From Gammaproteobacteria bacterium (lineage in GTDB: Bacteria > Pseudomonadota > Gammaproteobacteria > Arenicellales > UBA868): a DNA stretch of 64,000 bases. Within the stretch, counting starts at the first letter, position 1, and each line of letters opens with the position of its first letter. Where the stretch lies: contig JAKUQR010000004.1 of the NCBI GenBank assembly GCA_022450155.1, positions 124,001 to 188,000 on the forward strand, written 5' to 3'. The notes beneath the pieces were generated by a model. That model had not been told where the DNA came from and made no database searches. It was given only the letters and a program-made list of their open reading frames with translations. Both the position numbers and the translations under genes were made by a program. Below, in pieces: positions 27,378 through 34,113 of this stretch.

Positions 27378-28103
27378 TCAAAGACTGAATTCATCGCCCA
27401 GAAAAACGGCGCGGACTTCAGGGTGGGCGAGTATATGATCTGCTGTTCCGGACGTCACTATACGGCCTTGTGCAAGAATGTAGGCGCGATCACAGATACC
27501 TAGGGTCTCACGTACATTGTGATCAGTGATCAGGACACCGATTCCGATATCGCGCAGGTGGGTAATGATGCGCCGAATGTCACCCAAGGAAATCGGATCT
27601 ATACCCGCAAAAGGTTCGTCCAGCAGTATAAAAGCAGGCTGCATGGCAACCGCTCGAGCGATTTCGACGCGCCGGCGTTCGCCGCCGGAGAGGCTGTAGC
27701 CTTTAGCATTGCGTTTGTGCGCAATGCCAAACTCAGACAGCATGACGTCAGCTCGCTTCTGCCGCTGTTTTGCACTGAGATCAGGTAAGGCCTCAAGTAC
27801 GGCCAGGATATTCTGTTCTACAGTCAGCCGTCTGAAGATTGAGGGCTCTTGGGGCAGATAGCCAATCCCCAGTCTGGCCCTGGCATGCATAGGAAGATCA
27901 CCGATGTCTGTGTCGTCCAGCTGTACGAGACCATCTCCCCGCCGGGTAAGACCACAGATCATGTAAAAACAGGTTGTTTTGCCTGCGCCATTGGGCCCCA
28001 AAAGCCCTACGATTTCCCCGCTGTTCACGCGCAGGTCAACATGATCGACAACAATCGAACCGCGAAAATGTTTTACCAGTCCGTGTGTCTCCAGTGTGGC
28101 CAA
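27378..28103 (-). CDS. lptB: LPS export ABC transporter ATPase LptB
   Basis: A 241-residue ABC ATPase with Walker [10 protein letters not shown], signature [14 protein letters not shown] and Walker [13 protein letters not shown]. With LptF and LptG it extracts lipopolysaccharide from the inner membrane. It is placed between lptA and rpoN as in E. coli. Confidence 0.97.
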
Positions 28104-28164: not shown

Positions 28165-29331
28165 TTACTTCCCATCGTCGCCAAGGCTGTCTTGCCAGGT
28201 GGTGGACCAGACGTCGTTGACGTCCTGCAACAGTCTGAGTCGTAACGAAGGCACCCAGACGCCGAAACCCACTGGCGGTGAGATCTTTTTCCAGTCGTTG
28301 CTGACTTCAAGAATACGAACTCTCGCACCGCTCATGAGCTTCCCGACCACGACCGAGTCCGGTTCGGTCGACGGTGTACTACGCAGGCGTACATTGTCGC
28401 CGGAGACTGTGCCGGTCGGACCCTGTCCGGACACATAACGACCGTAGATCCACACCCTCACTCCGCGGGTAACATTCACCTTGAACCAGCCGCCGCTTGA
28501 AGCGATTACTTTCACGGGTTCACCCACGTTCAGTACCCCAATGGACGGTGAAGCCTGACTGCGGACGCCATACATCATTGCGCCGCCTTCGACAACGTAG
28601 GCGGCACGAAATGTCGGGGCCTGCAGGTTGTTTGAAAGAGTGGCAGCCGACGTGTCTTTCGCACCGGTACTGCCGGTGCTGGCGGCGGTTTGTGCACTAC
28701 TGGTTTCTTTGGATCTCGGTTGTAATACGATGCGTGGGCGATCTGAACCGGTGGCAGCAGGATCTTGTGAGGATTGATCGGAGTCGTCGTTTGTTTGTTC
28801 AGGTGCTTTGGTCGTTCGAGTCCGACCACGGACATTCATCTTATCCCGTGCCATATCGTAGACGATGGTGTCGCCAGAGACCGCATCGCGACCCTGTCTG
28901 ATTGTGGCTTGACCGATAAATGTGACAATATTATTGATTTCATCCAGTTCGATAATCTTACTCTGGCCGATGACGTCTTGCAGTTTCTGATCGGGCCGTT
29001 GTCGAAACACGGCCGGGTTGCCACGTGCTATCGCCTTTTCCAGCTGCTCATCGTGGTAATAAAGTTCGACCTCATCCGCAATGATTCTGATCGTGCCCTG
29101 CTTGATCGAGACATTGCCACGGTAAATCCGCTGTCCGCTGGCAAAGTCGAGTTCAACTTCGTCTGCTTCAATCAGGGCTGGTTGGTCACGGTCACTTTCC
29201 AGCGCGTGTACGGACGTCGGCGGAATCACTGATAAAGCGAGGAGAAGCACAACAAAAACCGGGGGGAACATAAGCTGAATTCTAACAAACCGAGGCCGAC
29301 TACCCCCCGAGAGGCCGGCACTTTTCACCAT
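28165..29331 (-). CDS. lptA: LptA periplasmic LPS-transport protein fused to two SH3-like domains
   Basis: A 388-residue protein, about twice the usual LptA length. Residues 1-43 form a signal sequence (cleavage near VHA), and about 50-168 are the OstA/LptA domain (IEADEVELDFASGQRIYRGN). A Ser/Thr/Asp-rich linker runs to about 238. Two bacterial SH3-like domains follow: about 242-302 (GEPVKVIASSGGWFKVN) and 308-368 (DNVRLRSTPSTEPDSVVVGK). SH3b domains often bind cell-wall peptides, so the tail may tie the LPS bridge to peptidoglycan; that is inference. Confidence 0.88.
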   Translation of the reverse strand: MVKSAGLSGGSRPRFVRIQLMFPPVFVVLLLALSVIPPTSVHALESDRDQPALIEADEVELDFASGQRIYRGNVSIKQGTIRIIADEVELYYHDEQLEKAIARGNPAVFRQRPDQKLQDVIGQSKIIELDEINNIVTFIGQATIRQGRDAVSGDTIVYDMARDKMNVRGRTRTTKAPEQTNDDSDQSSQDPAATGSDRPRIVLQPRSKETSSAQTAASTGSTGAKDTSAATLSNNLQAPTFRAAYVVEGGAMMYGVRSQASPSIGVLNVGEPVKVIASSGGWFKVNVTRGVRVWIYGRYVSGQGPTGTVSGDNVRLRSTPSTEPDSVVVGKLMSGARVRILEVSNDWKKISPPVGFGVWVPSLRLRLLQDVNDVWSTTWQDSLGDDGK

Positions 29332-29384: not shown

Positions 29385-29819
29385 TTACCGGAGTTTAATG
29401 GTCATTCTATCGGCTGACGTCACGCTGCCCACGGCCGTATCTGTTGCGCCTTGGGTTACCTGAACGTTACCCTGCAGCAGAATCTTGGTGCCGTTTTCGT
29501 AGACCAGGCCGGAGTCGCTGGAGGTCGTGCGTGATGATGTGTCCTGTCCATATTGCACCAGCCGGGGTTCATCCAGCAAAGCGGTATTATCGTCTGGGAA
29601 ATGCGCCAGGCGCTTGGCTTCCAGTACGTAGGCGATGCCATTGGCATCACGTCCCGTGGCCGTGAACTTATGAATGTAGTAGTCCGGTTCGTGGCTGATG
29701 ACAGTCCCATTTTGGGGTAATGTCGGTTTGAGAAAATTCATCTGCAGCCATAGGCTCAGTCCGAACATCACCGCGATCGTGGCGACGAGCACTGCTTGTT
29801 CAAGGTGGCGATCGGCCAT
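29385..29819 (-). CDS. lptC: LPS export protein LptC, shorter than usual
   Basis: A 144-residue bitopic protein with an N-terminal membrane helix (about residues 9-27) and the start of the LptC beta-jellyroll (GIAYVLEAKRLAHFPDDNTA, LQGNVQV). Typical gammaproteobacterial LptC is near 190 residues; this one stops at ADRMTIKLR, so the last strands appear missing. Position between kdsD and lptA supports the identity. Confidence 0.82.
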   Translation of the reverse strand: MADRHLEQAVLVATIAVMFGLSLWLQMNFLKPTLPQNGTVISHEPDYYIHKFTATGRDANGIAYVLEAKRLAHFPDDNTALLDEPRLVQYGQDTSSRTTSSDSGLVYENGTKILLQGNVQVTQGATDTAVGSVTSADRMTIKLR

Positions 29820-30792: not shown

Positions 30793-30983
30793 GACGCCTT
30801 AATTTGTGTTTAGGCAGCCAACAGCCGCGATCTGGACTATTCTACTGGAATCATGCATTGTCAGTGCTCAGCGATACGGATCGTGATTCAGGCCAAACAC
30901 TCCTTCGGCTCCGGGCTGGTCGGACTGTTAAAAGTCCGACCGCAGGCCAGTTCATCGGAGCGTTCATTGCCGAACAGGGGCTT

Positions 30984-33449
30984 ATGATGGACTTCCCGGT
31001 GTTGTATTCCAAAACAGTTCTGGGCCGACCGTTCCTGATGCTGGCGTTGCTGCTTGGTGTGCTCATCTTTTTCTCAGCTAATGTCAGCCAATTCCGTTTG
31101 GACGCGTCTGCTGATTCTCTGTTGCTTGAAGATGACGAAGACCTGCGGATATTTAGGCAGATGTCTGAGCGCTATCAAACACGCAGCTTCATCTTTGTTG
31201 CTTTTATTCCAAACCAGGATCTTTTTGCTAACAACACGCTCAATGTGATCCGTCGGATTAAGGATCAGATCACAGCGCTAAACGGCGTTGAATCGGTAGT
31301 CACCCTGCTCGATGTCCCACTGCTGAAGCAGCATGAGGGCTCTTTATCAGAGTTAGCCAGTAGTTACCGAACCCTGGAGAGCCCACTGGTCGACACAGAC
31401 AAGGCAAGAGACGAGCTGATTATCAGCCCTATCTTCAGTGATCTAGTCATCAGCACGGATGGCAAAACGACTGCACTGCAGGTCAACCTTGCAGAAAACA
31501 CGCCGCTAATTGCGTTACAGGCCGAGCGTGACCAGTTACTGTCGCGAAGCCAGCAAGCCAACTTCACAGTGAGCGAAAAAAAATCACTCGATCGTGTCAC
31601 GCAGGCTTACGTCTTGGCAAAACACCAGGCCGATCAGCATAACCACCGGCTGATCGAGCAACTTCGCGGCATCATGGATCAGTACCGAGATCATGGACAA
31701 CTGGTGCTGGGTGGCGTGCCAATGGTGGCCGACGACATGATTACCTTCATCAGAAACGATCTATTCGTTTTTGGCTGTGGTGTCTTTTTGTTTCTGGTGT
31801 TGATTCTGAGTCTGATCTTTCGCCGGCCACGCTGGGTGTTGTTACCATTGATCAGTTGCGTCTATGCCGGTCTGACGATGGTCGGGCTACTGGGGTTCAT
31901 GGGCTGGCCGGTCACAGTGATTTCGTCAAACTTTGTTGCACTGATGCTGATCATCACCATGTCCATGACAGTCCATCTGATTGTTCGATATCGGCAACTC
32001 GAGCGTGATGAACCTGGCAGGTCGCAGCAGGAGTTGGTGTTTAAAACGACACAGAAGATGTTCTGGCCATGTCTCTATACTGCGTTGACCACAATCATTG
32101 CCTTTGGATCACTGGTTTTCAGTGATATCAAGCCGGTGATTGATTTCGGCTGGATGATGTCTTTGGGTCTCGGCGTTACTTTCCTGACCTGTTTCCTGTT
32201 GTTTCCCGTCATGTTGGTGCTGCTTGGTCACGCGTCACGCACTCAAATTCAGACCATCCGGCCGTTCCATTTTACGCTGGGTTTGGCCCGGCTGACCGTG
32301 CATCATGGCAGGTGGATACTGGTATTGTCTGCTGTGCTGGTTGGGTTGAGTTTTATCGGCATAATGCGCCTTGAAGTGGAAAACAGTTTCGTGAACTACT
32401 TTGGCGAGGACACTGAAATTCATCGTGGCCTGCGGGTCATCGACGACCAACTTGGCGGCACTACGCCGTTGGATATCCTGATCCGGTTTCCAGAAGCCGA
32501 ACGCTCGGTGGCATTAGAAGAGGAAGATGAAGAACTTAAGTTACTGTTGGGTACGACGGATACCGGTGATGATCAAGATTACTGGTTCACCCCGGACAAG
32601 ATAGAACTTGTCAAAAAGGCCCACGACTACATCGAGACAGTCTACGGAATCGGAAAGGTGATGTCGGTGGCGTCGTTCATTCGAGTGGGTGAAGAGATCA
32701 ACAAAGGACCTTTTGATGCGTTTGAACTGGCAATTGTGTACAAGCGAATGCCCCAAAATCTGAAGTCGACACTGATAGATCCCTACATATCGGTTGCAGA
32801 CAACGAGGCCAGAATCAGTGTCAGAGTCAAGGATTCGCTTGCCGATCTTCGTCGCGATGAGCTGCTTAAACAGTTGCGAGCTGGGCTTATTCAGGATGTG
32901 GGACTAGCCGAGGATCGTCTGCAGATTACCGGGCTGCTTGTGCTATACAACAATATGCTGCAGAGCCTGTTTAAGTCACAGATTGAAGCACTGGGTGTCG
33001 TGATGCTGGGCATAGCAATTATGTTGCTCATACTTTTTCGTTCTTGGGCACTGGCCATCATCGGAATCATTCCCAACCTACTGGCCGCTGTGTCTATTCT
33101 GGGTCTAATGGGGTTGATTGGAATTCCACTGGATATGATGACCATCACAATTGCTTCGATTACAATTGGTGTTGCTGTCGACAACAGCATTCATTACCTG
33201 TACCGGTTCAGAGAAGAGTTTCTACAGCACCGTGACTACGTGATAACGTTGCGCAACTGCCACGCCAGTATTGGCAATGCAATCTCGTATACCGCCATAA
33301 CGATCATTGCGGGGTTCTCTATATTGACACTGTCGAATTTTGTGCCGACCATTCACTTTGGCATGCTGACCGCATTGGCGATGCTAATTGCACTGCTGGC
33401 ATCGTTGACGTTGTTGCCTAAACTGCTCCTGATCTTTAAACCATTGTGA
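30984..33449 (+). CDS. RND/MMPL-family membrane transporter
   Basis: An 821-residue protein with two repeats, each a large periplasmic loop followed by a bundle of membrane helices (around residues 255-410 and 675-815). It belongs to the MMPL/sterol-sensing RND group that includes the hopanoid exporter HpnN. ATG 30984 behind AGGGG was chosen; the frame runs upstream to 30804 without family-like sequence. It sits where mlaFED are found in related genomes and is followed after 10 bases by an MlaC-like gene, suggesting a joint role in lipid transport. Confidence 0.85.
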   Translation: MMDFPVLYSKTVLGRPFLMLALLLGVLIFFSANVSQFRLDASADSLLLEDDEDLRIFRQMSERYQTRSFIFVAFIPNQDLFANNTLNVIRRIKDQITALNGVESVVTLLDVPLLKQHEGSLSELASSYRTLESPLVDTDKARDELIISPIFSDLVISTDGKTTALQVNLAENTPLIALQAERDQLLSRSQQANFTVSEKKSLDRVTQAYVLAKHQADQHNHRLIEQLRGIMDQYRDHGQLVLGGVPMVADDMITFIRNDLFVFGCGVFLFLVLILSLIFRRPRWVLLPLISCVYAGLTMVGLLGFMGWPVTVISSNFVALMLIITMSMTVHLIVRYRQLERDEPGRSQQELVFKTTQKMFWPCLYTALTTIIAFGSLVFSDIKPVIDFGWMMSLGLGVTFLTCFLLFPVMLVLLGHASRTQIQTIRPFHFTLGLARLTVHHGRWILVLSAVLVGLSFIGIMRLEVENSFVNYFGEDTEIHRGLRVIDDQLGGTTPLDILIRFPEAERSVALEEEDEELKLLLGTTDTGDDQDYWFTPDKIELVKKAHDYIETVYGIGKVMSVASFIRVGEEINKGPFDAFELAIVYKRMPQNLKSTLIDPYISVADNEARISVRVKDSLADLRRDELLKQLRAGLIQDVGLAEDRLQITGLLVLYNNMLQSLFKSQIEALGVVMLGIAIMLLILFRSWALAIIGIIPNLLAAVSILGLMGLIGIPLDMMTITIASITIGVAVDNSIHYLYRFREEFLQHRDYVITLRNCHASIGNAISYTAITIIAGFSILTLSNFVPTIHFGMLTALAMLIALLASLTLLPKLLLIFKPL

Positions 33450-33459
33450 GTCGACAATC

Positions 33460-34113
33460 GTGACTACTCAGTTGCCACGTTTTAACAACCGCCTTGGAAT
33501 GCGCGTGTCTGGGATCGTGTTGTCAGCTGTTATGATGGTTGTATCTATGGCAGCGCAGCCCGCTCGAGCAGAGCAACGACCTGACACGTTACTGCGTGAA
33601 ACCGTAGAACAGTTGCTGGCTGAGTTGGACAGTAACCGGTCGACACTGGCAGCCGATAAGGGCCAGCTTTATGACCTGGTCAATCGTCTTGTCCGTGCGC
33701 AGTTTGCAGTCGACAAGATCACCCGACTCATCCTGGGCGCGCATTTCAAGACAGCCGATCCCGATCTGCGACATCGTTTTACCCGTGCTTTTATGGACCT
33801 GATGATCAGAACTTATGCCACAGTGATGTTCGAGTACACCGGCCAGGAAGAAATCGAATACCTGCCCCTGGCTTTCGATGAGTCAGCCCGGACTGCCTTG
33901 GTACAGACCCGGGTGCGGGATCCCGGGCAGGCGCCAGTGCCAGTCGATTATGCTTTCCTGCGCAGTGCGGACGGCCGGTGGCAGATTTACGATGTCAGGC
34001 TTGACGGTATCAGTCTGGTGCTGAGTTATCGCCGCAGCTACGACCAGATCATCAGGACCAAAGGGTTTGAGGCCCTCGTCTATGCGCTGGAGACACAGGA
34101 CGCAGACGGCTGA
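33460..34113 (+). CDS. mlaC: MlaC-like periplasmic phospholipid-binding protein
   Basis: A 217-residue exported protein (GTG start, signal ending near ARA at about residue 37). The pattern DLRHRFTRAFMDLMIRTYAT and the C-terminal WQIYDVRLDGISLVLSYRRS is diagnostic of MlaC/Ttg2D. It would shuttle phospholipids across the periplasm. The MlaFED ABC complex is not in the window and an RND/MMPL protein is encoded directly upstream. Confidence 0.87.
   Translation: MTTQLPRFNNRLGMRVSGIVLSAVMMVVSMAAQPARAEQRPDTLLRETVEQLLAELDSNRSTLAADKGQLYDLVNRLVRAQFAVDKITRLILGAHFKTADPDLRHRFTRAFMDLMIRTYATVMFEYTGQEEIEYLPLAFDESARTALVQTRVRDPGQAPVPVDYAFLRSADGRWQIYDVRLDGISLVLSYRRSYDQIIRTKGFEALVYALETQDADG

Follow-up and report, generated by a model that had tools for sequence, protein, structure and literature searches.

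A tandem SH3b tail on the lipopolysaccharide bridge protein LptA and its possible role as a tether to the cell wall

How the Lpt bridge passes through the peptidoglycan layer and is positioned there is, to our knowledge, not settled, and we know of no wall-binding part in standard LptA. An lptA gene in the window (the whole 64,000-nucleotide stretch of DNA analyzed here) brings the question into focus, as it encodes an LptA core followed by a pair of SH3b domains. Is this protein genuine, how widely does it occur, and could its tail hold the bridge to the wall? The gene sits between lptC and lptB, retaining the order lptC-lptA-lptB; genes for LptD and for two LptF/G proteins are also present in this genome. 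In window coordinates, the locus contains the following features:

27378-28103 (-): lptB ATPase (TIGR04406, E 1.3e-108)
28165-29331 (-): lptA-SH3b gene, 388 codons plus stop; probable true start Met21 (29271), from orthologue alignment
28171-28215 (-): C-terminal helix, aa 373-387, with W375 and W379 (AlphaFold2; alignment)
28231-28419 (-): second SH3b domain, aa 305-367 (second PF08239 stretch; AlphaFold2)
28429-28614 (-): first SH3b domain, aa 240-301 (PF08239 at aa 257-301; AlphaFold2 pLDDT about 90)
28615-28809 (-): linker, aa 175-239, predicted disordered (pLDDT < 50 at aa 177-200 and 203-239)
28717-28740 (-): RPRIVLQP motif, aa 198-205, the ancestral LptA C-terminus, conserved in fused orthologues
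28810-29205 (-): LptA (OstA fold) core, aa 43-174 (TIGR03002, E 8.3e-34; PF03968)
29203-29271 (-): signal peptide MFPPVFVVLLLALSVIPPTSVHA, evident from sequence, with a start on which orthologues agree and a putative cleavage site
29385-29819 (-): lptC, 144 aa (PF06835, E 5.5e-21; TIGR04409 aligned over 4-123 of 180)

Two plus-strand ORFs lie nearby. By eye, the 881-aa product of 30804-33449 looks like an RND-type (MMPL/hopanoid-transporter-like) membrane protein, and the 217-aa product of 33460-34113, which follows it, resembles MlaC.

The lptA frame is open throughout, with no internal stop across its 388 codons. Counted from Met21, the precursor would probably be 368 residues long, with a normal signal peptide ending SVHA/LE. 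A first-pass annotation of this DNA had read the gene as LptA joined to tandem SH3b domains and had proposed a domain search for OstA plus SH3_3. That search found both in one open frame and upholds the reading. TIGR03002 scores 116.5 bits, above its curated NCBIfam equivalog cut-off of 71.7, and the Pfam LptD_N/OstA model (PF03968) matches aa 54-162 with an E value of 9.7e-25; the solved structure nearest to the core is P. aeruginosa LptH (4uu4, E 8.8e-15). Pfam SH3_3 (PF08239) matches in two stretches, with E values of 2e-14 for the whole protein and 1.2e-15 for the tail alone, and scores 54 bits for the protein against a gathering cut-off of 27.

Structure prediction agrees with this division. 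The full-length AlphaFold2 model, built with 24 relatives, has a confident OstA core and a confident tail with aa 177-239 disordered between them, bearing out the disordered linker of the first-pass annotation; its pTM of 0.41 means that the arrangement of core against tail is not fixed by the model. Modeled alone with 18 sequences, the tail folds into two SH3 barrels and a C-terminal helix (mean pLDDT 90.1, pTM 0.81). The helix tryptophans W375 and W379 are invariant in a 12-sequence alignment, and the helix is absent in genus g3, where the tails end earlier. Fold comparison matched the tail to SH3b chains at Z scores of about 8-10 over 63-78 residues, and among the best matches are cell-wall hydrolases and enzymes such as the phiSM101 endolysin, NlpC/P60 endopeptidases and B. 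subtilis YrvJ. Eukaryotic peptide-binding SH3 domains also turn up, at a lower Z of about 6-8.

Unfused LptAs indicate where the tail was attached. In the window's order, and in the class, a motif of the RPRIVLQP type forms the very end of the unfused protein; most unfused LptAs of the order stop at or just past a motif such as RPRIVLKP, SRLIINPK or SRIVIQP. In the window's family, f1, about 35 more linker residues and then the tail follow the motif at aa 198-205. Because the motif is retained ahead of the tail, the simplest history is that the SH3b pair was added beyond the old LptA C-terminus. The motif is probably the equivalent of strand β16. In E. coli and P. aeruginosa, the C-terminal strand region of LptA contacts both LptA and LptD (PMC5575297, PMC7347655).

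Two genes merged in error could produce such a protein, a concern that the first-pass annotation had raised. We searched 109 genomes of the order, most of them metagenome-assembled genomes (MAGs), and then read the ORFs. The fusion is present in 29 of the 33 genomes of family f1, across six genera, a few of the loci being cut by contig ends. From the other four genomes (60-82% complete) no lptA was recovered, and all 29 recovered lptA genes carry the tail. The same architecture in 29 independent assemblies, together with the open frame, rules out a merge or frameshift artifact. Named relatives are marine MAGs with labels that include Arenicellales, Acidiferrobacteraceae and Candidatus Thioglobus; the order is taken here as GTDB Arenicellales, with UBA868 as the probable family. 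None of 22 lptA loci from ten further families of the order (f8 is not in this set) encodes an SH3b domain.

Within family f1 the tail is under constraint. In three pairs from the window's genus and four from genera g4/g5, dN/dS ranged from 0.09 to 0.33 for the tail and from 0.03 to 0.37 for the LptA core. The core is under tighter constraint than the tail in g4/g5; in the window's genus, constraint on the tail matches or exceeds that on the core. The tail is thus maintained by purifying selection.

Beyond the order, we searched a class-wide sample of 273 other genomes, in which the window tail had no match at E <= 1e-15. Among the best ~150 LptA matches listed in this class sample, the window's is the only frame longer than 360 aa. 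Reading about 50 class-mate LptA C-termini turned up one further SH3b case, at locus L159 of genome G110. This led into a second order, sampled by 63 genomes of families f14 and f241; 60 of these gave a match, and in 57 the LptA alignment extends through an SH3b domain (SH3b match E 7e-14):

L159, L175-L204, L223, L224: LptA-SH3b loci of the second order

Most of these proteins have one SH3b domain; genome G724 has three SH3_3 stretches, and G666, a 1.1 Mb genome, encodes an LptA without SH3b. The second order is probably Nitrosococcales, with f241 corresponding to Nitrosococcaceae and f14 to Methylophagaceae, a naming that fits the distribution of ammonia monooxygenase (encoded in 6/6 f241 genomes and 0/6 f14 genomes tested). 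The second order excepted, SH3b tails were absent from the other LptAs whose C-terminus was read across the class. Two long frames, of 355 aa in G344 and 330 aa in G260, proved to be upstream read-through. Elsewhere in the phylum, 13 regions with long OstA frames had upstream read-through or low-complexity tails and no SH3b. The literature searched yielded no paper describing an LptA with SH3 domains. The first-pass annotation had called the architecture nonstandard; this holds for LptA at large and fails for family f1, where it is standard, and for the second order, where a one-SH3b version is. Because the window tail and the second-order SH3b domains have almost no BLAST similarity (best E 0.14), we lean toward a separate origin for the second-order fusion.

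A different domain occupies the LptA linker in another family of the window's order, f12, represented by a single genome that is 98% complete:

L227, 264-1145 (+), genome G076: LptA with LysM, 293 aa (PF01476, E 9.3e-11, above cut-off)

Here LysM lies inside the linker and is followed by RARLVIQPGSAD. Across seven further genomes of the order, drawn from five families, LptA carries no LysM. LysM is a classic peptidoglycan binder, and its presence in the f12 LptA is suggestive, not conclusive, for a reading in which the window's tail tethers LptA to the wall.

Where did the f1 tail come from? Its best relatives are SH3-pair modules of Sel1-repeat proteins, in the same genome and across the order. 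One of them is encoded in the window's own genome:

L002, 970-2610 (-), genome G000, contig C23: Sel1-SH3 protein, 547 aa, with 3 Sel1 and 4 SH3_3 stretches

This protein looks periplasmic, with a hydrophobic, signal-like N-terminal segment, and carries at its C-terminus two SH3-SH3-WxxxW modules to which the tail is homologous (E 3e-24, 34% identity). A tree of 60 SH3-pair modules does not separate three candidate donors, namely module 1, module 2 and the Sel1 proteins with a single module. The LptA tails do not form one clade in this tree, genera g2 and g3 sitting on long branches, and there may have been more than one gain of the tail inside family f1. The same genome has a second Sel1-repeat protein (L132, 353-1984 (+), contig C16), a 544-aa frame with a weak, diverged SH3-pair-like region.

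Because different wall-associated domains are found at one site in LptA, we regard peptidoglycan tethering as the best explanation for the tail, and put the probability that it binds peptidoglycan and tethers the LPS bridge to the sacculus at roughly 55%. The protein would be a functional LptA that carries, beyond its natural C-terminus, a flexible linker and then two SH3b domains packed as a compact unit. Its OstA core and retained C-terminal strand would still build the LptC-LptA-LptD bridge, presumably by head-to-tail assembly. The tail need not block this assembly, because the motif that is probably the LptA- and LptD-contacting strand lies ahead of it. From each LptA a tail would hang by about 35 flexible residues and bind a ligand that we expect to be the peptidoglycan sacculus. 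The bridge would thereby be held in, or guided through, the wall, which could affect its position, number and stability. The wall-enzyme fold matches, the Sel1-SH3 homology, the f12 LysM, the second-order SH3b domains, the fixation of the tail throughout the family and its low dN/dS all speak for tethering, as do the conserved gene order, the LptD and LptF/G proteins of the genome and the precedent of H. pylori Csd5. Against it stand the origin of the LysM version in one genome, the eukaryotic peptide-binding SH3 domains among the fold matches and a full-length model that does not fix core against tail.

Moreover, not every SH3_3 domain binds the wall, and proteins too are among the ligands of SH3b domains. 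The main rival is a protein ligand, which we consider unlikely while taking it seriously: the SH3b pair would be a scaffold that, instead of contacting glycan or stem peptide itself, recruits a periplasmic or envelope partner such as LptD/LptE, a wall-synthesis protein or a Sel1-SH3 protein and couples LPS export to other envelope assembly. SH3 folds often bind proteins, peptide-binding SH3 domains are among the fold matches, and the A. baumannii SH3 protein ElsS was treated as a candidate member of the Rod complex for wall synthesis (PMC7481262). However, wall enzymes and endolysins are among the top matches of the tail, and the f12 protein places a glycan binder, LysM, in the same linker. 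It is less probable still that the tail acts without any external ligand and tunes bridge assembly, limiting oligomer length or stabilizing LptA. The tail does follow the presumed strand motif, whose region is the LptA-LptA and LptA-LptD interface in the E. coli and P. aeruginosa proteins (PMC5575297, PMC7347655), but the disordered linker should let it swing away. Its Trp-rich SH3 folds are conserved beyond the needs of a spacer, and a spacer would not account for the use of both SH3b and LysM.

We give hardly any credence to a neutral passenger or an annotation or assembly artifact, a generic possibility set against independent assemblies, an ordered fold and dN/dS well below 1, with relaxed selection not seen. 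Equally improbable is a role in making up for the short LptC of this order. LptCs of the window's order (29385-29819 (-) in the window, L029, L031, L032 and L138-L156) end about 46-55 residues before the 29 class-mate LptCs compared (L033-L062), and the tail might replace a lost LptC-LptA contact, since the C-terminal strand of E. coli LptC docks LptA (PMC4986956). E. coli tolerates a similar truncation, lptC Δ139-191, given sufficient LptB expression (PMC4986956). However, families of the order without the tail share the short LptC, and L159 of the second order combines an SH3b tail with a full-length one; from family to family the short LptC and the tail do not go together, so the short LptC is independent of the tail, and we rejected the compensation idea.

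Returning to peptidoglycan tethering, at least three lineages (f1 with its tandem SH3b, the Nitrosococcales-like order with SH3b and f12 with LysM) may have independently put wall-binding domains on the C-terminal end of LptA, a proposal to which we give slightly less than an even chance. If it is true, evolution has arrived repeatedly at anchoring the LPS bridge to peptidoglycan, and in those lineages there is a physical link between bridge and sacculus. The wall-type fusions are natural constructs for testing whether bridges are tethered, and the second order, if our naming is right, offers the cultivable Methylophaga and Nitrosococcus. They also show that LptA can bear a large folded addition at its C-terminus.

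Several known proteins come close to this one. Like E. coli LptA (YhbN) and P. aeruginosa LptH, it has an apparent signal peptide, an OstA core, a hydrophobic C-terminal strand motif and a place in lptC-lptA-lptB; known LptAs end at or near the motif, whereas this one runs on for about 180 residues, which include the Trp helix and both SH3b domains. The closest NCBIfam model for the tail SH3 domains is TIGR04211 (SH3_and_anchor, the YgiM type), at 42.2 bits (46.1 for the tail alone), below the cut-off of 65, and unlike that type the window protein lacks a membrane anchor after its SH3 domains. Csd5 of H. pylori has a periplasmic SH3 domain reported to bind peptidoglycan, according to a passage in PMC9507126 that cites Blair 2018. 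Csd5 differs in being an inner-membrane cell-shape protein with no relation to LPS transport. The Sel1-SH3 proteins share the homologous SH3-SH3-WxxxW module, but carry one or two copies after Sel1 repeats and occur also in families without the LptA fusion. The second-order LptAs likewise place SH3_3 past the same C-terminal motif by way of a low-complexity linker, although usually as one domain, not close in sequence to the window tail, and with a full-length LptC at L159. The f12 protein, from the window's own order, also has an extra wall-type domain in its LptA linker; there it is LysM instead of SH3b, placed before the C-terminal motif, whereas in the window LptA the SH3b pair comes after it.
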